From Astropecten irregularis (taxonomy: Eukaryota; Echinodermata; Asteroidea; Paxillosida; Astropectinidae), in contig OZ020247.1 in NCBI GenBank assembly GCA_963971285.1, forward strand, positions 14,590,614 through 14,654,613: 64,000 bases of DNA, in the 5' to 3' direction. The translations under genes and the position numbers were made by a program. How positions within the stretch are numbered: position 1 is the stretch's first letter; the number at the start of each line of letters is the position of its first letter. The notes beneath the pieces were generated by a model. The model had not been told where the DNA came from. It did not search any database and saw only the letters and a list, made by a program, of their open reading frames with translations. Shown here piece after piece: positions 6,501 to 58,599 of the stretch.

Positions 6501-9500
6501 TATAACAATGCAAACAATTTATTGCCCTTCACCCACGTAGATAAGCACTTCACTGAGTGCCTTTTGAGCACACATGAAAAAAATCATGCGCTGGCTCAGG
6601 TGGGATTCCAATAATCTGCACCCAAATTACAGATTTCAATACGGACAATTCCAAATAGTGCGCCCTCAACATTTTGCAACACGTTGGCCGACCAATCACT
6701 ATCCGCGGAATCCGTTGACCCTTTCCAGATGCGCATCGGGCTGACAAATTCCATACATTTGTGATTGGTCAATGCGTTGCAAACTCCTGGGGACACACTA
6801 TTTGGAATCACCCGTATTACTTTCTGATGAAGCGATTGACTGAAACCAAGATAATATTGCAGCTGCTGTTCTGAACTTGATTGTTTTTACCTTCGGATCG
6901 CCTTCCACGTCCATTCCGGCGAGTATGTAGCGACATAGTTTCTCCAGCCTCTGCGGAGGACAGTAACATGGTAATCAAGTACTTCAGAAAGAGAATAAAA
7001 TCATTCACTGAGAAAAAGGCCCTTTTCCAAACCTCGGCTCCGGCTCAGGCTCCGGCTCCGGCGCTGTCATCCATATGCTGAAAATGTAGGTTGTGGCTTT
7101 TCATTGAAGCTGAATCCCTGTTTTCTTGTTCAAAATAGAGAATCTACTTCCAAACCGTACCCAAAAGCCTCTATTTTGATACCTGTTATTCAAAAATGGA
7201 GTCACGAAATGGAGCCGAAGCCGGAGCCTGAGCCGAAGCCGAGGTTTGGAAAAGGGCCAAAGTTTTGACAACAAAGGGAAGTGACACATTCCTCCTTTAA
7301 TACCATTTCTCAAGTACAAGCTCGTATAACCCTAACCTAACCCCTGGGCATATAATAGGGCTCCGTGCTCGAGCTATTTATAGAATACGGCCTTTATATC
7401 CACAGACAAACTTGTTGTTCAGACAGATGTTCAGACAAACTTTTACAACATTTACAACATCTGAATGTGACGTCACGAGCGCAGAGTCCTATTAGCTAGA
7501 AACCTTCTTCTGTTCTTGTCAAAATCTAACAACGTGGTTCTAAGTTTTGATGCATGTTCTTGTGACTTGGGCCAGGTTGGGTCTGCTAGTTACAGTGACC
7601 TGCATCCTATCCAGTCCTTTTGTGCCACTGAAAATAATGCAATACTTAGAAGGTGGACTTTGCAGATTTGAATTTTGACTGGTTTACGATTAATGCAAAG
7701 GAATCGATAGTTGTGGTAAAGAACTCAGTGAGGATAATACAATCATGCAGGGAAGAGTACAGTGGAATGCTGCTATAAAAAACACCATTATACTGAACAT
7801 TTGACTATACTGAACATTTGACTATACCAAACATCATCCTTGGATCCCAATTTAGGTGTACAATACATACTGAATATGGTTCTCTAAATCACTACAACGA
7901 ATGACCACTACATGTATAACAGGCAATATCAGTGCATCCCACCATGTTCGTTTTAGCGGACTTCCACTGTACTTGCAACAACCATTAACAAGGCACCAGG
8001 CATCACCCACCTGCCTATCCCTATGCTCCACGTAAACCACCAGGAACTTGTAAATAGCAGCAAAGACATCCTTGGCTGGGGGATAGAAAAAGTGTAAGCA
8101 GGGGTTGATTTCACCAAACTCATCGCAACTTATTATCAATCGTAGTCACTTATAATGTATCTAGCAGCCCTGTGTAGGATACAATGAGTTATCCTTCATA
8201 ACTCGAGTTACGATTAATCATAGGGCTTCGTGAAATCGACCAAAGGTGTGGTAACCAGGTTAGGACAGTAATTTGAACCAACAAAGGTTTTATAAGTGGT
8301 CATTCTGCACTTGTAGGCAGAAGATGGTGGGTTCATATCCCCCCTAATGCAAGCCCGTGATTTCTATTTGATCATGCTTCTTCTAATATAAAGTAAGACA
8401 TCAAATAACCACAAAGGAAACTTACTGAATTTTTAATCATTGAAAAGTGAACAAAGAAAAATTAACTAGAGTGAGATTCGAACCAGCAACCTCCGGAATG
8501 GCAGTTCAGTTTTCCGGAAAAACCTCTGGTTCGAATCCTGCTCCAGTCAATTTTTCTTTTTTCTCTTTTCAATAAAGTAAGACATGTGGGCAATGCAATG
8601 CTTCATTGTGAATCATTTATCACACAGTATGACACTGCATCTTCTAACTTGATTCACCCAGTAGAATTGGGTCACGACTTTTGGCCTCATAGGCGTGTCC
8701 TCAATAGACAATTTGAATCCACTGAGGTCAGCCCAGCCACGACGAGGTCACCTTCCTTTGTGGAATGATATTCATGACGCCGCGGCCAACAAAATGGCCA
8801 TGCTGCCAAATGCTGCAGCCGCAGCCACAACCACAGCCAGTCACTCAAGTGGGACACAGCCAGAGATGAGATTGACCAATGATAAAAATGTCTGAAAACA
8901 TCTGACAAGGAGCGTAAAAAGTCTGAAATCTGAAAATTTCCTATACTTTTGTACACAGGCTGTGAGGAAAAAAAAATCTGAAATCAAAAACAAAAAAATC
9001 TGAAATCAGATTTTAATCTGAGAAATCTCATCCCTGGACATAGCCTAAAAGGTGCAGAGGGTCAGGGTTAATGATGACCAATACCTGGTTTGATTTGCTG
9101 TTTGTTGATACCAGCTGACTGCGTTGGCTGAGGTGACAATGACAATGAAGATAATGATGAGGCGGCTGTGGTTGGAGTCACATCATTTACTCCAAGGAGG
9201 GAATCCAGGCTGTGAAGCATACATCGTCGGTATCGCCTCCTACTCAGAAATCCTCGCACTAGCGCCTATCAAAACATCCAGGTTAATTAATGCAATTATT
9301 AGTTTAAAGGTTTACTGTAATCAAAATTGGGAAAGGGGTGAAAATGCTTAAAAATGTTTGCTAAATACATAATTAATGACTATACAAATTTATATGTTTA
9401 TGTAAATGCTTACTTTTGACCAAAAAGTTACAAAATCAGTAGGCCTACATGTTTGCCCAGCCCCCCAAAAAAGTCCCCCTTGGAAGACGAAACGCTTAGC

Positions 9501-10275: not shown

Positions 10276-10620
10276 CTGATGCAGTCTAATCTGTTTCCCT
10301 TGTGTTTTATGAAATGATTTCAGTGATTATGTTGGCCGTGTGAGTGTGTATGGTTTTGTCACTTTTAAACTGGTTCTGATAGCAGCCAAACGTTGTCAAT
10401 GGTTGGCTGATTTTGGTTGAGCTGACAAGGTCCTCCATTAGGCCTTAAAAAAAAATTGTTGTGTTGGAGTAACGGAGGGTTGGAAAATAGGGTAGGGCGG
10501 GCGGATTTGTTTTGTTTTTTTATTTAATTTTTCCTGTATTAAATGCTTTTTTCCTGTATATCACAGTATTTGACAAGTCAAATAAAGACAAGAAATGACA
10601 TAACAACTTTAACCAGTCTG

Positions 10621-10862
10621 GGGCCTTTTCAAAACCTCGGCTCTGGCTCCGGCTCCGGCTCCGGCTCCATTTCGTGAATCCATTCTAAAATAACGGGTAT
10701 CAAAATAGAGGCTTTTGGCTACGGTTTGGAAGTAGATACTCTTTTTTGAACAAGAAAACAGAGATTGAGCTTCAATAAAAAGCAACAACCTATATTTTCA
10801 GCATATGGATGACAGAGACGAAGCCGGAGCCTAAGCCGGAGCCGAGGTTTGGAAAAGGGTCC
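10621..10862 (-). mobile_element. GGCTCC-terminated element, copy 2
   Basis: This is the same element as at 7018 in the opposite orientation: GGGCCTTTTCAAAACCTCGG, GGCTCC hexamers, CATTTCGTGAATCCATTC, CAGCATATGGATGACAG and GGTTTGGAAAAGGGTCC. Confidence 0.75.
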
Positions 10863-11656
10863 TGGTTTCCATCGTCTTCTTTTTTTTTTCTTTTTTTTCC
10901 CGATTTTTTTTTTTATGGTTTATTATTATTTTTTTTTTATTTAAAATGTTTACGGTCGGGGCATACTATTTTTGGGTCGGGCGGGTTACGCCAATACAAC
11001 AATTTTTTTGTTATGGCCTTACTCTGCTACTGCAGTGCTTTTCGTGGCTAATGTAGTAAGTATGGATGGCAACTGTGCCTATAATTCTTCTGAAAGGTCA
11101 TCCAGAGTATTGAAAAGAATGGTTCAGGAGGCTACTTTAGGTTTGATGGAGCTTCTGAAGGCCAGTCGGGGTTGAAGTTATCTTGACAGATGATTGGAAT
11201 AGCTATATTCCAAAATTGGGTGGTCTCAGGGAAGGATTCTAGCCTTGAATGTATGGAGTTGATGTGTTATATTAAATTCTGAACTAATTCCTCCATGCAT
11301 ATCTCACATTAATCATACATAATCCAGTAATCTCAGGTAATTACAAAAAAATACTATCGCTATATTCAATTCAATTGAATGTCCACACACTGGAAAAAAA
11401 TGATGAAGTGCACACAAGGATTTCCATTACAAGTATTTCAAGCACTAGGGTGTTTCAGTGAGGACACCGTACTGTTTTTCTATTGGCCTTCATTTCCCAT
11501 CATTCAACTCTACAGTAAATGTCGGTCCGGAGGTGTGTGGTTGTACGAAGGTTGTTTGTGTTTAGGTTCCAAAAACCACCAAACCGTGAAACTGGCAAGT
11601 TAAAAGATTTGAACCGATGTGGACCGGGGATTGCCATGTCAAGAACGATTTGAAGA

Positions 11657-14600
11657 ATGCCTCTTTTCAAGAAGAAATCTGGTGAGTGCTGTCGGATTTC
11701 CGTTCGTTGTAAATCGCTGGCCGAAACCGGTCTGTTCTTCCGATAAAAAAAATAAGAAAACATTTAAGGGGTAGATCTTGGAGAGGGGGCGGGGTTTTGA
11801 GGGTTCGTGGGGTGGCATTTAGGGAATTGGGAGAATGAATGTTATGCCTACCAATTACCATCAATGTGTGTCAATAATATTCATTACAATTGTGTTGTAA
11901 ATGTAAATAGGCCTAATGAATTGAGGACTAGGCCTATCAAACGGCGATTGTATTTGTAAACTAACGTTTAGTTGCGATGATCGTAACCCTAAGGTCCCTG
12001 TCCCCATGTCAGACCTAGGGTTACGATCATCGCAACTAACTAACGTTAGGCTTTTAGTTTTAGGCCTAAGTTAGTTTTAGTTTTAGAACATGAAAACTAC
12101 TTTGGGACGCCCTACATTTTTATTAAATGCACAGCATGCGCAACGGAATGTATTCACGGTTGGTCAAAACACAGAGGGGTCCCGAACTTTACAATCACCT
12201 AACAAACAATAGGCTAGTCTCAATTTTGAATTTAATGTTGACATTAGAGTTAAGACACATTGACAATGACATGCCTGAATATGTAACGTTATTTTTTTCT
12301 AGTAATCAGTTAATGTTATTATTCAATTGTATGAAATTTATATTTTGCCAGCACCGTCATTCTTCTGATTGGCCAATTTCACATTTTGTGAATCTTGATG
12401 CTAAACTTGATGTATATTATGGCGACATCATGATTTGAATTTCTAATAATTTGTAGTTAATTGCATTATTGTATACAATATTCGATATGTTTTTCCAAGA
12501 ATATGATACTTGGCGAAATTGGTACGTATATGTAATCTGAGCATTGCATTATGTTGGACATAATGATCTTGAACTTCCAATTGTGGAAAGGCCTTATTCA
12601 AAGTTTTTCTTTTTACAAACATAATTGTTACGATAAAAAAAAAAAAAATTATTTGCTACTTTATAATTCATGATTGTTTTTTTCCATGACAGAAAAAAGG
12701 CAGTCAACAGCCACAGCCCCACAGATCCAAAGGAAGACATCGCTCCCTCCGGCTAGTAACCCATCGGCAGCCTCCACGAAACCCCCGCCTTACCCAACCC
12801 AGAAAAAACCTTACCCAACCCAGAGAAAACCTGTGGAGACAGGCGCAAGTCTACCCAATGGGGGCGCTATAGCACAACTCAGAAATGAACCCGCGGACCA
12901 GCAGAGGAGTGGTAACTTGGGCAAGCAGAACAGTCTGAGACGAGAGTTTAGCGACGAGGATAGCCAGTATGGAGATCTGGGAACAGGTGAGAAAGGTCTT
13001 CTGCATACAAATTTATGCTTTCATTTCATGGCTCTGCTTATCCCAGAATTTGAGGAAACCGGTCTTCAAGTCAACAGCGCACGCGCATGCAATTGTCAGC
13101 ATGCGCGCGTTGTTTTGCGCGCGTGTGCGCTGTTGACTAGAAGACCGGTTCTCCAAAGTCTCCCATATGCTTGCCGTGTAAGCGAGAAATCCTTTAATAC
13201 TAGTTACCTGAACTAGACACATGCACAATTGAAAATTCCTTGCCCATCCATGAAATCTTGTAAGCATAGAATTTTCTGCTTCCATAAGCACTGATTCTAT
13301 GCTTACGGTAAGCATAAATTGGGCCCTCATGAGATACTGTTAAGCTGCCACAAGCGAGACTTGAATAAATGTTTGTTTAACTTCCTTACCACAAAATCTG
13401 CTTACTTCAAGTAAGTAACTATTAAATGCTGATTTCCAGCCTTGTAATTTTGCTGATGCCACAATGAACACCCTACACAATTTCCATTTGTACACATTTT
13501 CAATTTGGCAAATTTCAGCAATTTAGGGTACGATTGTGACAATCTGCTTATTCGTGATCTTTAATTTTGACAACAACTACACCGTGATTTGACATTGTTC
13601 ATCAGGTACCAAGCAACTCCTCAACACGGAGCTGGAGACCAAATCTCGGCTGTGCCGGACCCTGCCTGAGGTCCTGCACGACAACGGCGCCCTACCTTAC
13701 TTCATCCAGTTCATGCAGGCCCAGAATGCCGCCCACCTGGTCCAGTTCTGGCTGGCCACCGAGAGTTTCTCCACGGCCTCCTGGTCCCGGCTCCGCTCCG
13801 AGTCCCTGACCAAGGCCTGCCAGAGCATCTCCGAGCAGAAGCCCCGGGCCGACTCCAAATCCTCCGGCACCGACTCCATCATCCCGCCACCGGTGGAAGG
13901 TCACTTTGGTGGAAGCCCGTCCGATCTCACCATTTCCCAGTCCTCCGAACAATCTCAGAGCCAAGAGGATAAAAAGATGGACATTGGCCAAAATAACAAT
14001 GACCGAACTGACCTTAAGACGACAGACGCCCAAACCAACGGAGTGAACGTGAAAACGCACTCCCGAGTCAAATCCGACTCGGTCGTCGGGATTGAGCGAG
14101 CAAACTCACACTCAAGTCCAACTGAACTTGGACACAGGAGGACTAACTCGTGGAAAAGCGTGGATCCGAAAACAGGTAACCGAACCAAATACACATTCAG
14201 AACAAAAACAGTCATCACAAAAAGGCAATTTGATCATATTAACCTTTCCATATTGACATTATTATGTTAAAGAGGATGTTTACTCAATAAACCTCGCTTT
14301 TTTCGTTAGAACTATAATCCTTAAATTACTTGACTTGAGAAAAAAAAAATTATCTCACACTGAACACAGAAAGAGAGTCTTTGTTGATGATTTTTCTCTC
14401 AACATGCTCAATCCGCAAGCTACCCCAAAATTGAGAGTGTCTGAATTTTCTCAATGGGCGTAGCAGACAAATCTGTATGATTTTGTGACGTCAGCCTTTT
14501 CATTTAAAGAAAAGGCTTCCATATCCGACGTCGCGAAATCACACAGATTTGCCTGCCTTTCATTCAAAGAAAAGGCTCCCATACCTGACGTTACGAAATC

Positions 14601-31623: not shown

Positions 31624-31970
31624 CAATCTTTCGTCTTTCGTAAATCCTCGGCTGGAAAACTCGCAACAAGGTACCTAACGTACCAGTACCACAACGTTGC
31701 TGCTTTACCCGTACTCGTTTCCGTGAACACTTGCAAAGATTCTTGAACAAAATCGGGGTAACCGTTTGTAATCGCCTGATTATTGTCAAGCACCAACGGC
31801 TCCAGTGTGGACTTAAGATTACCGTGATTGCTTTATAGACGTTCATTTGGACTAATGGAAGTTTTATTACGGCAGCAGATAAAAGCTGTCTGAATTTTTG
31901 ACAAGCATGACCCACGGACATTTCGTGCCGACGCACTGCAGCACTGCGTGACGACGGTACCGTGTGCGTG

Positions 31971-34900
31971 ATGTTCTCACCGGGTCACTTACATTCGGCT
32001 GCTTCGCATAACAACGGCACGGTGATGACCGGCAACCCAACGGGCGCTGGCGGGGTCGACTACGGCGTGCGGTCGGTGGCGGGCGCCGGAGGCTACCCGT
32101 CCCGTGCTGCACAGGCTTACCACGGGGGAGGAGGCGGCATGGATGCCGGATCAGGGTTCAACTCGTACGGTGCCAGTAACACCATGGGCACCGGGGACAA
32201 CTTGAAGGGTTTTGAATGTGGCGATCTGGACAATGCTCTTCTCGCTTCTGGTGGATTGCATTCCACTAGTGGAACTGATGGACAAATGTACCCTGTGCCC
32301 AACAGAACTATGAATGCAAACACTGCAAACATGGCTTATGGTGAATATGGACAAAGTGATACCAGTGCCGAAGGATTTGGGTACGGCCACATGAACAGAT
32401 CACATGCATACAACAGCCAGCACATTCCCAGTGGTGTGGCTTACGGCAGGCAGGCTCGAGGGTCCAATAACATGAACAGTTCGATGCAACAATCGGCAAA
32501 CTTAGATTACTCTGGTGATGGCATGGCGAGGAGGATGTCTGTTCCGGCTTCAGACAACAGTGCATCAACCCAAAGCTTTGGACGCTCAAACTCCTATCCC
32601 ACTGGAACACCATACGAGAACTCGCATAATCAGTTTCCACCTTCGAGTCAGTCGTATTCCATGAGTGGATACAGCCAAGCAGCCTTTCCAGATATGGACA
32701 CAAGTGCATCAAATATGCCGAGTGGACAAATGACTAGTAGGAGGACCCAAGCAAACAGTTACTTGCAATCGTATACATCGAGTGCAGTGAAGAAACCTAT
32801 GTATCCAGCTCCTGGTGGAGTTAATGAAAGCTGGGCAGAACCAGGTTATTCAGCACATTCGAAATTCCCATCCCAAACCCCCATGTCAAAAGGCTTGCAT
32901 TCGATGGATACCATGGAAAACAACAGCATGTATCCCCAGTTTCAGCATGGGACTCAGAATTCGGCTGCCATGCATGGAATGCAATATGCCAGCTCAAGAC
33001 AGCCAGGATGTACCTATCCATCATCCAACACCGAAATGGCAACAAATCACTACTCTTCGGTTAATAGCTTGGACATGTGTACCCCTACATCTACTACAGT
33101 GAATTACAGTAATAAAGTTGCCAAGGCTTTTCCTGGAGCAAACCCCTCTAGGCAGAGCTCAGTGTACAACCAGATGCCTGTCGGTCATTCACGAAGTCCA
33201 GGATATAAAAATGTCACAGATTCGCAGGCAAGTACCATGGGCCAGTCGAGTGCAAATGCTGGGTCACAAAGATTACGCCATTACGGACCAATGCCTAACC
33301 AGGGTCAAAACTCGCATCATATTCCGTATACCAGATATAATACTAATGATGCTTCTGCCACGGGTGGTGAATCTGCTGTTGCTACCCCTAACATGCATGG
33401 ACAGTACCAACAGTATGATCAGTATGCCGGGAGTGGAACCACTAGTACAACTACAAGACATGATAGATTGCGATCACTGGATGGGAGATTTATGAGCAGT
33501 ACGTCACCTGCACAGACAGCAATGACAGCCCCAACGACATTCCCCGTCCAAACACCAAACCAAAGGCCTTTCGATTCAGCTACTCACCAACCCCATGTAG
33601 CTGGCCATTCATTTGGAAATACCAATCCTTCATACTACAATAACAGAACTTCCTGTAAATCTGATGGGTTTAGCCCAACTTCAATGCAGGCAACAGCCGG
33701 TTGTCAGGAAATGTACAACCAAACCTATAATATGGAGGGACAGCAGAGGTACAATGCTGCAAATGTTATTCCTCCTACTAACTGTCCCCCAGCATACCAA
33801 GTACCCAGTGATGGAGCTCAGACTGAGGCTGACATACGGAGAAACATGATCTTTAGCGCTGAATTGGAGAAACTGGCTAGGCTGTCCAGGGACCCAATGG
33901 CTGATGATTTTCCTGCAGGAATGAGTGCTATGACCGGTTCTTCCCAAACCCAAGAAGCTGTGAATAGTGCGACAACACAGCCTGTGAAAAATCCACCATA
34001 TTCGAATCCAGCAAGTAGTGCCATGCCCCTTGGTTTGTTCAACAACCAGAACCAGGGTCAAAATGCTACTGAGAACAATGCAGTCGTGGGAAAAGGTTTT
34101 CAGTCCCCACCTGCTAGTGCTTCAAATATTAGCACAAATCAAACACTGAAAATCACCAGCGCCCCATCTTCAGTGACTGAATCGTGTGCAGCCGCTTCTT
34201 CTGCCCCGTCAACGCCTAGTTCCAGTGCAAGTACTGTGCAACAAACATCTCCCGATGCCAATGCCACGAGGCCGGTTCGAACATCGGTTTCAACCAATCC
34301 AAGCACCTCAACCCCAACCACAATCTCTTCTCAGGACAAAGGTAAAGACTCTAACAATGCAGTCCAGCAGCTTCAGCGCTTAACACAGTCGCTGAAGGAG
34401 AAGAAAGACGATGGAGCGAAAGGATCTCACATGGAATACCTGAGCCACAATAGTGACAGCGCCTCCTCCCTCGGTGGACAGAACTGTATCGCTGCCTTGT
34501 CTGCTGCTTGTCGTAATATGATAGCAGACATGGACAATTCAATACCAAAACTCGCTCCTTCATCGCACAGCCCCATGGGAATAAAATCGGTCATTGATAA
34601 TACAGGGAGTGGTTTGGGACAAAAATATACGCCAACCCCGCCAAGCCAAGCATCATACAGCTCTCAAATGCCCGAACAGATGTTCTCACCCCCAATTGCC
34701 AATGGGCAGAACATTTCCCCTCCTGTAGTCTCAATGAGTGATTCCTTCAGCTCTCCTCCCTATAATACAGCAAATGTACCTCCAGATTACCAAATGCAAT
34801 TTAATGATTTCCTCGAGCAGAGCGTGCCCATGCAGATGAACACCAGACGACCTGAAGAAAAACCAAGGAAAAAGGCCAAACGCAAGAAGTCAGATGAAGT

Positions 34901-35832
34901 CAACGACATGCTTGCTGCCAGTACTATCGGCCAGAAGAAAAGGCGTGGACGCAAGAAATCCTCCCAAAACCAACTTGGTGTTGAGTCCTTTGACCAGCCC
35001 CCATCACTGGAAAACTTGAGCGATGGGCAGATGCCGCTGGTTGAGGAAAATCCCAGCCGGTCGGCCACGCAGACCCCAAACATTCTGTCCAATTCGTGGA
35101 GGACAAATGATACAAAAATGAACACCGAGCCCATGCCCGGTGTTTTATCCAGCAACCAGCCAGCTTCAGTGGACAGCGATTGTGTCACCCAAGATTTTTT
35201 GGACAGTGTGTTTTCGCCAGACACCACAATGTCTGCCACAAACCATGAACCTGTTGACTCTTTCAGTCAGATAACGAGCGCAAATCAGTCGCACCATTCA
35301 CCAGCATCTTCACTTACCTCACAGCAGTCCATGAATGAAACGGCTTCTACAGGGTCCTACTCATCTCAAGGTGGACTTATTACGCGGGCCAATCAGACCT
35401 ATCAAGTCGACAGCATGGACCAAACGACGCTGGTCATAAACCAAACAATGAAAGCCAGCAAAACTTCCAACAGCATAGTGTCTTCCACGGGTGACCTCAT
35501 GTCTAACCCAGTGTCCACTTCCAGTGACACCACAGATGCGAACAGCGAGAAAAGCACTGCCGAAGAGGTACATCCGCTTGAAATCTTGCAGGCCCAAATC
35601 CAACTGCAGCGGCAGCAGTTCAATTTGAATGACTCGCGCCCGTTGCCTCTCAAAAACACTTCCCGGAAAACCGCCGGGGCTAACCTCGCAAAGAAAACTG
35701 GTCCATCCTCGGTGCAAGGGGAGGTGGATGTGAACGTCCTAATGGCAGAGGAGGATGCAACGTGGTATATGCCTAACGAACAGCCAAAGGAACCCGAAGT
35801 GCCTTGGGAGAACACCCGAAAGACTGCCAAAG
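31971..35832 (+). CDS. PRR12/QSER1-like large nuclear protein, first large coding exon (3' exons off window)
   Basis: One uninterrupted frame of about 1287 codons starts at ATG 31971, with an in-frame TGA upstream at 31908. The protein is mostly low-complexity, rich in Ser, Asn, Gln, Met, Thr, Tyr and Pro. Ordered islands are NCIAALSAACRNMIADMD near residue 837, a strongly basic AT-hook-like region near 959-1003 (KPRKKAKRKK, KKRRGRKKSS), and the stretch EILQAQIQLQRQQF (about 1203) to LMAEEDATWYMP and VPWENTRKTAK (about 1256-1287). The last stretch resembles vertebrate PRR12/QSER1, which likewise have a giant exon before short exons carrying a C-terminal DUF4211 domain. Here a strong donor (AAAG|GTAAGG, exon end 35832) truncates the frame in phase 1, so the further exons should be right of the window. 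Unspliced read-through would add only 15 residues. A CAG at 31939-31941 could be an acceptor, making this an internal exon. Family assignment comes from memory of conserved blocks and is good but not certain; I cannot choose between PRR12 and QSER1. Confidence 0.75.
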
Positions 35833-36199
35833 GTAAGGACAGTTCTACTGTCTTTCCCTGGGACTGGTTTGCATCATGATCTATGGTGCAATGAAAACAG
35901 CCCAAAATCAAGGAACCCAAAATGCAGTTTTGTATTGGAAACATTGAGCAAACTGAACAGTGACATTTCACCGGCCATACGAAAAGTACAGACATCAAAT
36001 TTGATCCATTGACTGCAAGTTGTCATGATGCAGGCCAGTAACTTCCTTCAATATTACCAGAAAGTTCCTCTGCATGATTGATCTTTTGTATTATTTTCAG
36101 TTTTATTTCAGGTTGCAAAAATATTTTGTGCATTCTGTGTACTGGTAAATTTGTAAATTTGATGTGATTGGTTACCATTGATTACATGTAATTACTCTG

Positions 36200-36557
36200 T
36201 TAAAGGTAATATCATACTTTGGTTTTTGTCAAAGAAATGCAGATTCTCGGGCAAAAATATCAAGAAAGATACGGTAACAGTCGTCTGTGAAATTCCCAGT
36301 CCCATACGGTGCTAACTTTTTGACAAAACAGTGAAAAATGCCCACAGTATTTTAAAAATCTTTTCACCATTATTTTTTATCTTTAAAAGATCAAAATTGT
36401 TTTTGGTTATTGGTTTTACTGTTTTCTGGATAAGTACAGCATTTCAGGCTGAAGAACTTTAACGGTATGTTTCTACCGTCACCATATTTATTCCCTGTAT
36501 TGGTAAATCTTTGAAGATTTCTGTTTTGGCAAACTACCAAAGTATGATAGTACCTTG
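36200..36557 (+). mobile_element. TTAA-type family A element
   Basis: TTAAAGGTAATATCATACTT opens it and CCAAAGTATGATAGTACC closes it; the right TTAA has become TTGA. Confidence 0.8.
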
Positions 36558-37683
36558 AAGTGCCTTTTTTTCTGTGCAGATTTTCTTTTTGATAAACTGT
36601 GTTTTAAACCAGCAGATATGTAATGTTGTCACTCTTCAATGTCCCTATTTTAGATTGTAAGGCAGTGAATGTAGACTTCTAGGTAGTACACAGGATTTGT
36701 TAGAATCATACCATTGTAATAAGTTTTGATCTGAAATTTAACTCTTTATGAATTTCATAGTTAGTACAAGTACTGATGTTTCTGTGAATCGTTTTGTTCA
36801 CAAAGCTGTCATATTTAAAAGAGAGCGCTCAATTCGAAAATAAAAAAAAGTAAATGCACACCAGCTGATTTTGGTTTTAAACATCAAAAGTGTGCAAAGT
36901 GTAGAAAGAACAGGCCACTTGTTTGTTCTAAAAACCTGATCTCCAATTTTGATGGGATTTTCAAAGTTCAGTTTGAAAATTCAGTTCCAAATGTTTCTAA
37001 ATGACCGAGTGAATGAATGCTCTCTTCCAAAAAAAAAAACCCAACCCAAAGAACCACAATATAACTAGTCCTATGTACTACCTTTGAAAAGTGAAGTTTA
37101 GTCAATATTGCAGATCAAACATTTACATGTACACTATTTGCAACCCAAGTAGGTACAGTACATGTAGTTGAGATGTGGCTAGTACCGGTACTACTACTAC
37201 TAGCATTAACAGCACATGATATACTGTTTGTACCGGTATATCAAAAGTTGCAAAGTAAGCACAGAAAGGCAATGCAAACAAACAGTTTATACGATCTCAG
37301 ACATTTGCGGAAGAAAACTTCATTTATTTCATGTACGTTTTTTCATGTGGGCGGTAGTTTATTTTTAGAAAAAAAAGGGGGATTGGTTCAAAGACAGCAT
37401 GGTGGATTGTACGCCCTTGTACCACCCTCCGCCACCGTCCGCTGGACCCAAAACACAAAAAAATCATGCCTATATCTGAAAAGTACAGTCTCAAAAGTTC
37501 TCAACATTTCAAAATAGTTCTAACAGTTTTTTTGTGCAGCGTGCGAATTGTTGTGTATCACTCCAGGGATTCATCGGGTAATTAACTGTTAAGCGGAAAG
37601 GGTAAGAATGTCCTCAAACGAGGAAATTCAATCAACCAAATCTTCAAATCTGAGATCATGAAAACTGCTCCCCTGGGTCAGTC

Positions 37684-37702: not shown

Positions 37703-39302
37703 TCTGTTGGAGGAGGGCGGATTCCTCCATGGATAGTTTCTGAGTTCGCTGCATTTCAAGGGATTCAATGTTTCAAATTGGCAAAGGATAAAGGCCTCTT
37801 TTTGTGCACATCGTAGTGAGCCTGGGATCCAAACACTGATGTGCCAGCTTAACACACAGTACGTAGAACCATGGAGGAAAGAAAAGACTTTTCTCCATGG
37901 TAGAACAGTCAGAGTCTGAACATAAAACATGTACAGATATCCCTCTTCATACAAATCTCATGGTTAGAAAGCTCTATAGAAAGAACTTCTTCCTCTCATG
38001 GTTTTTGTTTGTTTTCCTTTTCGTACTATGCTGTAAACTTGTGAAGGAAAATCTCCCACATTGTGCTTTTATAGTACAGAGGAAACAATTGTGGTGCAGC
38101 ATGGCAGAAGTTCATGCTACTTCTGTTTAAACATACTACAGTACCAGTGCTTTTCAATGTTAGTGTGAAAACTAAATTGATCAAAAGTGCCTGTGGCACA
38201 GTTGTGTAAAGTATTGGTATATGATTTGGTAACTGGCTAGATTTCTAATGGATCAGAAATAAATGCATTATAAGCCATAATGCATTTATTTCTGATGTAT
38301 TTACGTCTCAAATTCTCAATGTTAACACGTAATGTTTGTTTTTTTAATTCTTCGTATTCTTGAACTATATGTATCATTTTTGTGGCAGTTTCACAGTTGA
38401 GAAATTTAAATCACTTGCTGAAAAATTGCAGGCAGTACATTTATTTCCTCATTTTGCCTTGATACGCATACACATGAATACGGGCACCTCCAAGGAAATG
38501 AAAACAATGGTTTAGACCTATGGATTCCTTTTTTTAAATGTTTAGGGTAAAAACCAAATACTTTGCTGGTCGTGACTGTTAAAAAGTTGAATGTGCACAC
38601 ACAATATATCGGTACACAGATCTATATGTGGTCAGATGCTGAATGAATTTCGTGGCAGTGAACGCGTATAGAAGAATCATAGATGGTGTCCTGTGCAGTT
38701 GTTCCAGCTTAATTGCAAAATGCATGTATGAGGAACCATATACTGTAGCACATGTGTGTGTATTTTGTCAAGATCAGAAAGCCTTTCCACTGTCTACTAA
38801 AGATGAGGAATGCGAAGTCTTGAAGAATGTGATGTGTTTCACTGATGGAGATGGTCGCTTGACTGGTCTTTTTTCCTCAAACTATTAAAAAGCAAGATTT
38901 TACTGCCCTGGTGTGTGTTGAATTTGAAAAAAAAGTATGATAATTTGTTGAGCTCTTCCAATTTCTTTTTAAGATATTGAGTGAAATATTGCAAAACAGT
39001 GATTAGAACAAAATCTGTATTCTGACAATTCATGTAAGGAATTTAGTGGTTAAGCATTTTGTTTATTTTTAATGTCTCTTTCACGAATGTATTTTATAAC
39101 TTAGGGAATTCTTGCAGTATTTGGAATCCTTGCAGATCGCCTGTTTTTTTTTGTCTTAAACTTGGTGATTATCATGGGTCTCTTACAAGTAAATTACTCT
39201 AGATCTTGTAAGTTCAGTTGAGAGAATCAGCCATTCTTGGTTCAATGTTATCGTTCCAGAGGAATACACTCTGTATTACAGTTACTGTAGTCCACGTACA
39301 TT

Positions 39303-39745
39303 GGAACTACATGGGCAATTCCAGCGTAACGGACATGACAATTACACAGTTTTTGCCTTATTCAGAGGATCACAACGTAGGATTGGCAGTTTGCAAACAA
39401 TTTTTATTAGGCTTATCAGACACATTTAACTATCAGTGACATATGTAGTAAATTTTATGTAATTTCATTGAACAGTTGTAGAGAAAATGCACTTCTTGTG
39501 ACCGTAACGGACATGACACTAAGTTGTCATGTCCGTTACGGTCACAAGAAGTGCATTTTCTCTACAACTGTTCAATGAAATTACATAAAATTTACTACAT
39601 ATGTCACTGATAGTTAAATGTGTCTGATAAGTCTAATTAAAATTGTTTGCAAACTGCCAATCCTACTTTATGACCCTCTGAATAAGGCAAAAACTGTGTA
39701 ATTGTCATGTCCGTTACGCTGGAATTGCCCACATGTAGCTTTCAT
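39303..39745. repeat. Near-perfect long inverted repeat (arms about 216 bp, loop 6 bp)
   Basis: The left arm runs from TGGAACTACATGGGCAATTCC to 39518, and the right arm from 39525 to GGAATTGCCCACATGTAGC. They pair over about 216 bases with few mismatches around a CTAAGT loop. CGTAACGGACATGACA occurs at both ends of each arm, so four times in all. A plus-strand intron transcript would fold into a long hairpin. Confidence 0.85.
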
Positions 39746-39763
39746 TCCAAAGAATGAATTACC

Positions 39764-40105
39764 TTTAAAGGTAGTATCATACTTTGGTGAGACACCAAAA
39801 CAGAAATGTTCACAGATTTACGTATCTTAGAGGGTATGAAGATGGTGGTGGTAGAAACATACCGTTAAAATTTTTCCGCAAAACGGCAAAACAACGACCA
39901 AAAATATTTTTGATCTTTTAAAAGGTCAAAAATAAAAGAAAAAAGACTTAAGAAATACTCTGGCTGTTTTTCACGATTTTCTCAAAAAGTGGGCACCGCA
40001 TGGGACTGAAATTTTCACAGATGACTGTGACTGTATCTTCCTTGATATTTTTGCTCATGAATCTGTACTTCTTTGACAAAAACCAAAGTATGATACTACC
40101 TTTAA
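39764..40105 (-). mobile_element. TTAA-type family A element, full length
   Basis: TTAA is intact at both ends with AGGTAGTATCATACTTTGG and its inverse. It starts about 19 bases after the long inverted repeat. Confidence 0.85.
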
Positions 40106-41399
40106 ACATCGCAGTTTTTCCCCTTTAACTTTCCACATCCTGTTGCTTTTCAGTTATATTTTCTTTGGTCCTTCAAGTGTATTTTCATTACCCAGGTATA
40201 ATTAAATATGGCTATATACCTTTCCAGACTTGCTAAAGCTAAACCAACTCCGGTGGGATTTAAACCAAATCAGAAGGACATAGGACATTTCGGTGTTATT
40301 TAATTACAATTTCACCAATGCGTTGCAAGCCATAATAATCTACACACGTATAATGTGTGATGTTTTTTTAGTTGAAAACTATCACAAATTTGCCATTGAG
40401 ATTTCACATGCTTGTACTAAAACTTAATGCATAAAAATGCCCATGAAGAAGGCAGTGAACAGAACCCAAAGTCCTTTGATTTACAAAGAAATGTACATAC
40501 AGTGTACGGCCTACAAAATTAACTGCTACATGGTAAATTTGGTAAGAGGCCTTGATGTGCTATACTGATGAATTTAGGGCGGATTTGTAAAATGTAGTAA
40601 ATTTTGTATCAGAATTCCGGAGTGGGTTTTTTTTAAACCAAGATAAATTATGTAGGTGATTTTGTAGCTGTAGGCGGGTCCTGCATAAAAAAAAATGCCA
40701 CTTGATGAAACTACATGTTACATGTAGATTCTATGAAAAGTTGTTTTTGGGGGCAGGGGCACAGCGTGGCGCCCCATTTTTAATCCAGCCGATTTCAGCG
40801 TTATGCCACATACAGTACAATGCAGTCATTTCTCCATAAACATAGCCCGAAGAGACATGTGTCCAGTAATAAGGCAGTAAGCCAACTTTTTATTCTCACT
40901 CCCCCTGCGTCGCGCCACTGCCGCCTTCTCTCGTGAAGGCTGCTGGGGGGTGTAAAGTCCAACAAAGGTGTCTGTATCACAATGGATTCACCGCTGTGCT
41001 GTCTTCCTGCCGGCCTACACCTTTTCCTTGTGTCAAATATTAACCGTGATCTTTGAATTGTTTACCTAAGGCAAGCAAGAAATACATGTAAATCCCAACT
41101 ATAAACAGGAAGGAGGGAGACAGTTTAGCCATGCACAAATGGGCGCTAAGAAATGTGGCTGACTCTGGAAATTTTTCCCTCCTTTTTTTTTTTTTTTATA
41201 AGACTTCTTTCGTAATTTTACTCCTTGTAATATATTTATTTTTTTATTTAAGCTTTGGTAATTGTAAATGTACATTTTACATTAAATTATTTTTAAATTT
41301 GTATATGATGTATTCTCTCCTTTTTTTAATGTATTGTGTTGGATCCAGTGGACAGGCCAAATAAAGGCATCTGTATTTGAATCATGTTGGTTACATCTT

Positions 41400-43593: not shown

Positions 43594-43940
43594 TTAAAGA
43601 TAATATCATACTTTGGTTTTTTTTCAAAGAAATACAGATTCATGGGCAAAAATATCAAGGAAGATACTGTAACAGTCATCTGTGAAAATTTCAGTTCCAT
43701 ACGGTGCCCACTTTGTGAGAAAACGGCCGCAGTATTTTTAAAAATCTTTTCCCTTTTATTTTTGATCTTCAAAAGATCAAGAATGATTTTGGTCATTGGT
43801 TTTACTCTTTTCTGGATAAATACAGCATTTCAGGCAGAACAATTTTAATGGTATGTTTCTACCATCACCATCTTTATACCCCTTAAGTTATAGGTAAATC
43901 TGTGAAGATTTATTTTTCGGTATGCTACCAAAGTATGATA
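43594..43940 (+). mobile_element. TTAA-type family A element, right end decayed
   Basis: TTAAAGATAATATCATACTT opens it. The right end stops at CTACCAAAGTATGATA without TTAA. Confidence 0.75.
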
Positions 43941-44154
43941 CAAACTACAGTAGCCACTAAGCCAGACCCATTTCAACAACACTATCTCATCCGCTTTGCT
44001 AGCAATACTGTGGAAGCTGAAATAACAAAATGGTATTTTTAAGGAAGCTTTAAGTTCAGTATTGTTAATCTTTATTGTACTTGAGGCGTGGCATGTGTAA
44101 TGATAAGCCGTTTCGGAATTCCTGGGCTTCTGCTTAAAATTACACATGAGTCTA

Positions 44155-45057: not shown

Positions 45058-45139
45058 TAGGAGGGCCTGACGTGTTTCGATCCTAGCAGAATCTTTAGGA
45101 TCCTGATCGTGCTAGGATCGAAACACGTCAGGCCTTCTT
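45058..45139. repeat. Hairpin directly abutting a family A element
   Basis: AGGCCTGACGTGTTTCGATCC and its inverse pair over about 27 bases (first 20 shown as GGCCTGACGTGTTTCGATCC). A decayed relative lies at 58046-58135. Confidence 0.7.
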
Positions 45140-45492
45140 AAAGGTAGTATCATACTTTGGTTTTTATCAAAGAAATACAGATTCATGGGCACAAATATCA
45201 AGACAGATACAGTAACAGTCTTCTGTGAAAATTTCAGTCCCATACGGTGCCCACTTTTTGAGAAAAAGTGAAAAACAGCCACAGTATTTCTTAAGTCTTT
45301 TCTCTTTTATTGTTGATCTTTTAAAACATTTTCGGTCGTTGTTTTACTAATTTCTGGATAAATACACCATTTCAGGCGGACACATTTTAATGGTAGGTTT
45401 CTACTAGCATCATCTTCATACCCTGAAAGTTATACGTAAATCTGTGAACATTTCTGTTTTGGTCTCTTACCAAAGTATGATACTACCTTTAA
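45138..45492 (+). mobile_element. TTAA-type family A element, full length
   Basis: TTAA is present at both ends, with perfect AGGTAGTATCATACTTTGG and CCAAAGTATGATACTACCT termini. Among the best-preserved copies. Confidence 0.85.
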
Positions 45493-50889: not shown

Positions 50890-51241
50890 ATTTATGAAAC
50901 GGAGGCTTAGGGCCTGTTTGTTTCACGCAAAGGATCCGATATTTTGGGATCCTTCTCCTATGCAGGGTACGCTAAAATGGGATCCGGATCCACAGGATTC
51001 GTCCGAAACAAACAGGCCCTGTGGCTCAGGCTCAGGCTCCGGCTCCGCCTAAGGCTCCATTTCATGAATCCATTCTAAAATAACAGGTATCAAAATAGAG
51101 ACTTTTACCTGCGGTTTGGAAGTAGATTATCTGGTTTGAAAAGGAAAACAGAGCTTCAGCTTCAATGTAAAATCACAACCTATATATTTCAGCATATGGA
51201 TGACAGAACCTGAGCCTGAGCCTGAGCCTCCGTTTCGTAAA
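50890..51241. mobile_element. GGCTCC-terminated element, copy 3, interrupted by an insertion
   Basis: TTTATGAAACGGAGGCT at the left is inverted as AGCCTCCGTTTCGTAAA at the right end. The interior (ATTTCATGAATCCATTC, CAGCATATGGATGACAG) is the usual one. The left hexamer array is split by the palindrome at 50909-51020. Confidence 0.65.
50909..51020. mobile_element. Palindromic AGGGCCTGTTTGTTTC element, nested
   Basis: AGGGCCTGTTTGTTTC and GAAACAAACAGGCCCT form the ends; GGATCC motifs and CCTATGCAGGGTACGCTAAA lie inside. A relative is at 55979-56103. Flanking GGCT on each side may be a target duplication. Confidence 0.65.
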
Positions 51242-52459
51242 CTCCCACAGAACCTTGAACTTTGCTATGATTACATATATGTCTTATGATATTTACACGT
51301 ACAGTGATAGCAGTAGGCATCACAATATTGATTTCATATTCAGTTTTTCTGCAACTGTCAAAAAGATGTGCTTTTAAAACAATTTTATCTCAAATCTGCC
51401 ATTTCATCATGCTTTTTGGGAAGGCATTTCTCCGATACTTACAGTATGAGAGCCAGAGTTTTTGGATTTTATGTCATTCACTCGGCAAACTTTGCCAAGA
51501 CTGAGTGGTCTCCAAGTCTGTGCACCTGCTGTATAAATTGCCCATGAAGCCTTGTGGGTTGACCTCCTTATGCCAATCCAGGGCGCACAGGTAAAAAACT
51601 GTCAAGTCAAGCAAAAAAGGTCACTAATCACCTGTTATAACATTTATCCCTGCCTCGCCCCTGTCGCACTCCCCATCCAGCAGGGGATTTTTTTCTTTTT
51701 CTTCTTTTCTACCCCTTTTTCCCCTCAGTACCTTTTGCCAGAGCGAAAGAAACAGGCCACGCCAGGACATCCATACCACCGCTGTGCATTCTTTGACTTG
51801 TAAATGGGCATCACACCAAACCCTCTCTAAGTGGGGCTCAGATCAATGGTTCCGGGAGACACTTGGGGTTTAGTTGGCCTAAATGCTCTGACGTCCCATA
51901 GTCATGAATTTTCAGCAGCGGTGGGGCCCTGCAAGTAAAGGTAAAAAGAGAGAGAGAGCTAGCTAGAGAGTGGCGAGGGGTATCACTTTACGGCAATCCA
52001 AAGCGAGCTTTTGGCCCCGGTGTAATGGCTCCAGATGCTTCAGTTTGTCTTGAAGAGGGCTGATCGCGTTACCTGCGAGGCACACACCTGGATAGGCTGG
52101 GGGGTGACAAGGACATGCACGCAGGCCCCAGATATAGGCCAATTAACCCCCCTAGTCTCCCCATCTCACCCTCCCCTAGTTTGCTTGATGGCGGCAGGGT
52201 TGTGGAGTGACAGTGAAATGGCCCCCAGTCTGTACTGACTGACACTATTAATCCAGTTTTTGCCCCTCCTCTGTCCCTTACCCCCTTTCTGGATCCCCCC
52301 TCCACTCCACAATGAAATTCTTTGTCAAGGCCTATTAAACAAATCAAAGAGAAACTGCCGAGAAACAACAAAAAATCATCTTGGTTCTCTTTCAGTGCTG
52401 GATTTAATGAACATTTTAATAATTAACACAAAGTTAGATCCTTAAATTTGTAATACTGC

Positions 52460-52827
52460 TTAAAGGTAGTATCATACTTTGCTAGCATACCGAAACAGAA
52501 ATCGTCACTGATTTACCTGTAACTTACAGGGTATAAAGATGGTGATGGTAGAAACATACCGTTAAAATTGTTTCTGCCTAAAATGCTGTATTTATCCAGA
52601 AAAGAGTAAAACCAGTGACCAAAAACAATTTTAATCTTTTAAAGATCAAACATAACAGTAAAAGCTTTTAAAATACTGTGGGCGTTTTTCACTGTTTTCT
52701 CAAAAAGTTGGCACTGTATGGGACTGAAAATTTTCACAGATGACTGTTATTGTATCTTTCTGTATAATATTTTTGCCCATGAATCTGCATTTCTGTGACA
52801 AAAACCAAAGTATGATATTACCTTTAA
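52460..52827 (-). mobile_element. TTAA-type family A element, full length
   Basis: TTAA is present at both ends, with AGGTAGTATCATACTTTG and CCAAAGTATGATATTACC. Confidence 0.85.
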
Positions 52828-57376: not shown

Positions 57377-57414
<38 letters not shown>

Positions 57415-57617
57415 TGCGCTGTCATCCATATGCTGAAAATATAGGTTGAGGCTTTTTATTGAAGCTGAATCTCTGTTTTCTTGTTCAAAATAGAATATCT
57501 GCTTCCAAATCGAACGCAAAAGCCTCTATTTTTATACCCTTTATTTTAGAATGGATTCATGAAATGGAGCCGGAGCTGGAGCCGGAGCCGGAGCCGGAGC
57601 CGGTTTGGAAAAGGCCC
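57354..57617 (+). mobile_element. GGCTCC-terminated element, copy 4, longest hexamer array
   Basis: At least six GGCTCC units stand at the left and about five GGAGCC units at the right, around the usual interior (CATCCATATGCTGAAAAT, CTGTTTTCTTGTTCAAAATA). Confidence 0.8.
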
Positions 57618-58045
57618 CTGGTTCATTTGACGTGTTCATTGGCATTAATACACTGTAGTTTTATACCCTCTCATCTGTTGTGCAGTCTAGTCCCAAGAAA
57701 CAGTCTATGGTTGACACTGTCTATTGTGCCTGCTTATTGTGATATTTAGCCTGAGGATGCTTAAGAGGATTTTCAGCAAGTGGGGACAAAAAATCTTGAC
57801 GAGCGCTGTATTTTTTTTTTCTGTTCAATGATGATAGTTTTAATAATAAACGTACTAGACATATGCCTTGGAGCTATTTGTATAATTTGCGTTGCCAGCA
57901 ATAATAAAGATGTTTTTTGAGAAGCCATGCAGGCCTAATAGCTGCTAATTATATTGCATTGCTATTTGAGCATTTCATCCCCGTGGATCATCCAAATCTT
58001 TGCAAGCTCATCAGCCAAAATGACCCGAAATATATAAAATGTTTC

Positions 58046-58352: not shown

Positions 58353-58599
58353 GGGCCTTTCTGAAACCTCGGCTCTGGCTCAAGCTCCGACTTCATCTCT
58401 GTAATCCCTATGCTAAAAATAATAGGTTGTGGTTTTTCATTGAAGCTGAAGCTCTAATTTCTTCTTCAAACCAGAGAATCTGCTTCCGAACCGCAGGCAA
58501 AAGGCTCTATTTTGATACCCTTTATTCTAGAATGGATTTACGAAATAGAGACTGAGCCGGAGCAGGAGCCGGAGCCCGAGCCGAGGTTTGTAAAAGGCA
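58353..58599 (+). mobile_element. GGCTCC-terminated element, copy 5
   Basis: GGGCCTTTCTGAAACCTCGG is inverted as CCGAGGTTTGTAAAAGGC. The hexamer arrays are short and mutated. Confidence 0.7.

Follow-up and report, generated by a model that had tools for sequence, protein, structure and literature searches.

A probable palindromic MITE family in Astropecten irregularis whose two arms carry paired changes

In this work we have investigated a near-perfect hairpin in a 64,000-nucleotide stretch of the Astropecten irregularis genome (the window; C10:14590614-14654613), together with the sequences related to it elsewhere in the same assembly (475.7 Mb, 168 contigs). We conclude, with a probability of about 85%, that the hairpin is one copy of a family of non-autonomous palindromic (foldback) MITEs which are moved by a transposase with 4-bp target duplications, and whose arms are not independent of each other. 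This estimate covers the whole of the best explanation, including copying between the arms within one element.

The initial annotation had described a near-perfect hairpin with a 6-base loop at 39303..39745. The hairpin is real, and comparison of its copies sets its ends slightly inside that interval, at 39313 and 39730 (Table 1). Gapless pairing of 39312-39518 with 39525-39731 extends over 207 nt with 98% complementarity around the 6-nt loop, and the five mismatches between the arms of the window copy, at 39369, 39373, 39376, 39405 and 39411, correspond to element positions 57, 61, 64, 93 and 99. The 16-base motif that had been noticed at both ends of each arm, CGTAACGGACATGACA, is present in the window in four exact copies; with up to three mismatches allowed there is no fifth match, the chance expectation being 0.28. 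The outer motif begins 12 nt inside the element end. A sensitive comparison found no second copy of the element in the window (best other match among those listed, E 0.27), in agreement with the earlier statement that the hairpin matches no other family there. None of the open reading frames of at least 110 aa, counted from stop to stop, overlaps the 418-bp element.

Table 1. Parts of the palindromic element in the window (positions in window coordinates)
Feature	Position	Strand	Basis
Palindromic MITE copy, 418 bp (GGGCAATTCCAG...CTGGAATTGCCC)	39313..39730	.	ends set by 40 copies
Left target-site duplication ACAT	39309..39312	+	copy comparison
Right target-site duplication ACAT	39731..39734	+	copy comparison
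Left arm, 206 nt	39313..39518	+	arm pairing
Loop CTAAGT, 6 nt	39519..39524	.	loop with flanks at 67 genome places
Right arm, 206 nt	39525..39730	-	arm pairing
Outer motif CGTAACGGACATGACA, left arm	39325..39340	+	motif scan
Inner motif CGTAACGGACATGACA, left arm; repeats the outer motif directly at a spacing of 178 bp	39503..39518	+	motif scan
Inner motif CGTAACGGACATGACA, right arm	39525..39540	-	motif scan
Outer motif CGTAACGGACATGACA, right arm	39703..39718	-	motif scan
Left-arm stretch with all five arm mismatches	39369..39411	.	sequence comparison; alleles compared across 40 copies

Several other features of the window may be mentioned here. A second, older high-copy MITE-like family with TTTAAAGGTAGTATCATACTTTGGT ends (about 340-370 bp, pairs of copies mostly 77-94% alike) fills it, with copies at 39764-40106, 36200-36560, 43594-43941, 45138-45492 and 52459-52827, among others; one of its copies lies about 30 bp from the hairpin. 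Another repeat family is found at 7017-7258, 10620-10863, 51023-51228, 57390-57618 and 58364-58598, some copies having runs of the hexamers CGGCTC / GGAGCC. A tubulin-family gene is located at 27565-26486 on the minus strand (Pfam Tubulin, 3.7e-44), and an open reading frame at 13593-14270 on the plus strand matches RGS weakly (0.00015, barely within the cut-off). The PRR12/QSER1 gene name and the large intron in which the hairpin was said to lie are putative assignments of the initial annotation. The 1322-aa open reading frame at 31911-35879 gave no Pfam match; by eye, a good-looking donor, CCAAAG/GTAAGG, opens a candidate intron from 35833. In the three plus-strand frames of 36001-64000 we found no Pfam domain and identified no downstream exon.

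A search of the genome for other copies, as the initial annotation had proposed, returned many. With 39280-39760 as the query we obtained 369 first-look candidates, and the best 40 of these 369, which were scored, matched over nearly the full length at 98-100% identity; the window copy itself was recovered at G000:C10:14629893-14630373. When up to two mismatches are allowed, the 28-bp terminus has 548 matches in the genome (271 forward and 277 reverse; none for the reversed control), which at about two termini each suggests some 270 elements. The loop with its flanks, with at most one mismatch, occurs at 67 places, 66 of them exact, and again the control gave none. Three pairs of termini spaced 418 bp apart (C1:3038122, C1:38756080 and C8:21270021) have no match to the loop, and 19 termini continue with a base other than A. 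We read 40 copies, the window copy included, all of which lie within the 67 loop-positive places. Once oriented by the loop, every one of the 40 has CTAAGT at its centre; the length is 418 bp in 38 of them, 417 in one and 419 in one. The 4-bp target duplication is exact in 38/40 copies and has one mismatch in the other two, and among the 38 exact duplications the first base is A in 28 and the fourth is T in 31. Mean pairwise divergence is 1.18% (780 pairs), a lower bound for the family, since the copies read are the best-scored ones and the divergence of the family is therefore underestimated.

The family thus combines 206-nt terminal inverted repeats and a constant 4-bp target duplication with a length of 418 bp devoid of coding capacity and with many near-uniform copies. 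Uniform copies flanked by target duplications are typical of a MITE that a cut-and-paste transposase has moved. This transposase would probably recognise the GGGCAATTCCAG terminus and the motif CGTAACGGACATGACA. Among the terminus matches listed on C1 to C10, out of the 548, we found no autonomous partner with the same ends, no transposase and no coding relative. Outside the host, exact CGTAACGGACATGACA gave one match in viral contigs and one match at each of 36 loci in prokaryote genomes; these look like chance occurrences, because the listed matches with E below 0.8 consist of the motif and a few flanking bases.

Do the two arms of a copy change independently? We polarised the alleles of the 40 copies with a diverged sister element (L094, described below), which gives sites 61, 64 and 93 a polarity opposite to that obtained by rooting with another relative, L092. 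Of the 37 derived alleles, 28 occur in one arm only, and the other nine stand at paired positions of both arms in at least one copy. Over all sites there are 19 paired cells where 0.275 would be expected for independent arms, although these cells are partly non-independent because the copies share ancestry. When the five commonest sites are excluded, five paired changes remain against 0.029 expected, a count that does not depend on polarity. These five rarer pairs belong to four copies (L078, L079 twice, L080 and L088), and each pair is found in 1/40 copies. The commoner sites are seen in both states: C61, C64 and T93 are present in the left arm only in 25/40, 23/40 and 16/40 copies and in both arms in four, five and three, while G57 is confined to the right arm in 15/40 copies and occupies both arms in two. 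Likewise, G118 is found in the right arm only in L085 and in both arms in L088. Transfer between the arms goes both ways. In L080 and L083 some sites are matched and others, from 3 to about 30 bp away, are not; the tracts look partial, although some of the unmatched sites may be later mutations. Perfectly symmetrical arms occur in 9/40 copies, in three allelic versions. This pattern fits short-tract copying, from either arm, of a new base to its partner site in the opposite arm. The earlier suggestion that the arms are recent or are kept similar by gene conversion is borne out by the near uniformity of the copies read and by the paired changes, which are direct evidence of copying from arm to arm. 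It fails as an account of a one-off local duplication, since the hairpin came by transposition as a MITE copy, with a 4-bp target duplication on its flanks, and the diverged sister element has the palindrome as well.

Could the paired changes instead have come from other copies? Recombination or gene conversion between different copies in opposite orientation has ample material, with dozens of copies in the genome and 40 scored at 98-100% identity. We searched the whole genome for three alleles, those of L079, L080 and L088, as exact 28-mers, a test that overlooks any allele with a further difference close by. Of the four matches to the L080 allele, two lie in L080 itself and the others singly at two further places; of the six to the L088 allele, two lie in L088 and four stand singly elsewhere, one of these places being L085. 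Both of these alleles may have been transferred between copies or inherited. The double change of L079 (positions 138 and 142), however, has only two matches in the assembly, the two arms of L079 itself (C17:19629822-19630254), and its transfer therefore most likely took place inside the element or its direct ancestor. Moreover, some matched sites stand beside untouched asymmetric ones in L078, L079, L080, L083 and L088, as short tracts predict. We thus consider exchange between copies an unlikely general source of the pairs. A still more doubtful proposal is that the arms are routinely rewritten from each other, perhaps during transposition by way of a single-stranded intermediate that folds, which would make the palindrome one 206-nt sequence stored twice. 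Such whole-arm copying would convert all sites at once; it could account for the symmetrical copies but leaves the partial tracts unexplained, and its odds are therefore low. The RNA itself might also keep the arms alike. The segment 39290-39755 has a predicted fold of -361 kcal/mol, whereas 100 shuffles average -97 (z = -45), and from this fold follows the idea of the initial annotation that a transcript running through the hairpin would form a long double-stranded RNA, a potential substrate for Dicer or ADAR. Selection on the RNA hairpin for some function, in small RNAs or editing, with compensatory mutation keeping the arms paired, could draw on this very stable predicted structure. Yet the copies are dispersed, those read differ by about 1%, and the two double changes of L079, 4 bp apart, are better explained by one copying event, which makes such selection most improbable. 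Near-perfect palindromes are also a known form of assembly artefact, and the initial annotation had raised a fold-back as a concern; with 40 copies in different flanks and with matching 4-bp duplications, and the loop at 67 genome places, this is ruled out in practice, and we give it hardly any credence.

More can be said about the age of the palindrome from its relatives. The sister element L094 (C8:14477678-14478124) is a palindrome of 427 bp with the target duplication TTAA and the same motifs, its inner motifs being separated by the 15-nt stretch TCAAGTGGCATTTGA. Its arms differ from one another at 10/206 sites. Compared with the arm of the 418-bp copy L067, the left arm of L094 has 13 differing sites and the right arm 11, and seven of these differences are identical in both arms, where 0.23 would be expected; none of 100,000 random placements reached seven. 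These seven shared differences could also have arisen if two palindromes had been made independently, each from diverged halves, but such an origin could not produce the arm pairs seen at the level of single copies. Since the diverged L094 is palindromic too, the palindrome is older than the 418-bp subfamily.

Shorter relatives also exist. Among the matches listed, pairs of termini occur at 240 and 249 bp, that is, 418 and 427 minus the 178-bp motif spacing, as deletion between direct copies of the motif would give; one of the 240-bp forms (C10:3949169-3949408) contains the loop. Two further elements on C9, L093 (274 bp) and L092 (3558 bp), have a common duplication and share ten flanking bases on each side. 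L093 is identical, at 274/274 positions, to the element insertion of L092 without its middle, and L092 is L093 with a nested insertion of 3284 bp, one copy of the 8-bp duplication ACATATGT included. We considered L092 as the coding parent of the family and rejected it, as an exact 8-bp repeat, ACATATGT, lies on either side of its middle, which is a nested unrelated transposon. This nested transposon (L092 155-3438, about 3.3 kb, 8-bp duplication ACATATGT, inverted ends alike at 22 of their first 23 nt) has an acidic open frame of 161 aa with no Pfam match. Of the eight genome matches to its protein, one is the protein itself, another (C21:5663898) is a relative at 99% and the remaining six stand at 37-45%; the frame and its matches belong to the nested transposon and not to the palindrome family. 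The 274-bp junction is found at three genome places, all on C9 (9779510, 9855750 and 9934534, spaced 76-79 kb), which represent a segmental tandem duplication or uncollapsed haplotypes; two of the three were read and have ten flanking bases per side in common.

The 274-bp form invites the question of whether the hairpin was born recently from it, by snap-back copying of L093 with TGT paired to ACA across CTAAGT. Over its first 215 nt it is identical to the palindrome, and a palindrome built from its arm reproduces L067, L073 and L082 at 418/418. Nevertheless, L067 minus the 144 bp between two GTTGT repeats is L093, letter for letter, so a deletion from an L067-type copy yields the same element. 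The junction is confined to its three places on C9, and the diverged 427-bp L094 is already palindromic with the same central motifs. We therefore rejected such a birth as very unlikely, on the grounds of the palindromic sister and of the deletion route, and we read the 274-bp form as a probable deletion product, not an ancestor.

In our best explanation, each copy inherits the whole palindrome from a master element, the palindrome predates the 418-bp subfamily, and once a copy has been born its arms do not evolve independently: a base newly arisen in one arm is copied over a short tract to the paired position, whichever arm it began in. The likely route within one element would be template switching in replication, or the repair of mismatches in a hairpin or cruciform that has been extruded; either would explain both the short tracts and the two directions. 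What we observe are the copies with their ends and target duplications, and the paired changes; transposase binding, the exact enzymology of the copying and any RNA consequence we infer. A long palindrome with a short loop should be unstable. How the likeness of two arms is kept up is hard to see at a single locus, whereas dozens of dispersed copies each repeat one natural experiment. Intermediates, finished corrections, both directions and partial tracts are all visible among the 40 copies, and with such stages in view the rate, tract length and direction of copying within a palindrome could become measurable in an animal genome.

Among literature titles and the openings of abstracts on MITE architecture, palindromes, dsRNA and template switching, none described a palindromic MITE like this one, and sequence strings of the element and of the neighbouring MITE were not found in the literature. 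The parts of the Galileo paper available to us (PMC3573991) contain no passage that mentions gene conversion, homogenisation, TIR identity or concerted change. Known elements resemble the family in single respects. Sleeping Beauty has terminal repeats of about 220 bp, each with an outer and an inner direct repeat (PMC7827188, in the portion consulted), and is thus alike in having inverted repeats of about 210-220 bp with two such repeats in each; it differs in its TA duplication and in the transposase gene between its ends, where the element described here has a 4-bp duplication and no coding middle. According to the same excerpt, Sleeping Beauty transposes poorly when its ends are too close and about 300 bp are wanted, whereas the arms here are 6 nt apart, although this requirement may refer to DNA beyond the element itself, and Sleeping Beauty belongs to another superfamily. 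Could the family nevertheless be of the Tc1/mariner IR/DR type, with two transposase-binding direct repeats per terminal repeat of about 210 bp and the transposase gene deleted? The layout is alike, each 206-nt arm having its two 16-bp motifs at a spacing of 178 bp, and by coincidence there is a TA on either side of the palindrome, at 39308-39309 and 39736-39737. The duplication, however, is of 4 bp (38/40 exact, 2/40 with one mismatch) and not TA, and the element ends inside the TA pair. The resemblance is one of layout alone; membership in Tc1/mariner is ruled out by the 4-bp duplications across the 40 copies, and we regard this origin as exceedingly improbable. Similarly, Bari_Dyak_MITE, as far as the consulted part of its description goes (PMC4877112), has 467 bp, long repeats with three direct repeats, and one copy. 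Like the present element, it is short, non-coding and essentially made of two long inverted repeats with subterminal direct repeats; Bari is a Tc1/mariner element with TA duplications, whereas here we find a 4-bp duplication, a palindrome with a 6-nt loop and dozens of copies. Sola2 elements, in the excerpt seen, make 4-bp AT-rich AWWT duplications (PMC3627910), similar to the present ones in length and in having mostly A first and T last, but AWWT accounts for only 14/38 of our exact duplications (counted by eye). The closest parallels to the copying itself come from other systems, each known to us from part of the respective paper: template switching in DNA replication creates and repairs hairpin stems and leaves paired changes (PMC8794818), and the arms of inverted repeats are homogenised in yeast (PMC8604942). 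As in our family, paired changes in both arms arise there from one copying event; those systems are RNA genes and short repeats, whereas here the arms are 206 nt long and belong to a multi-copy transposon.
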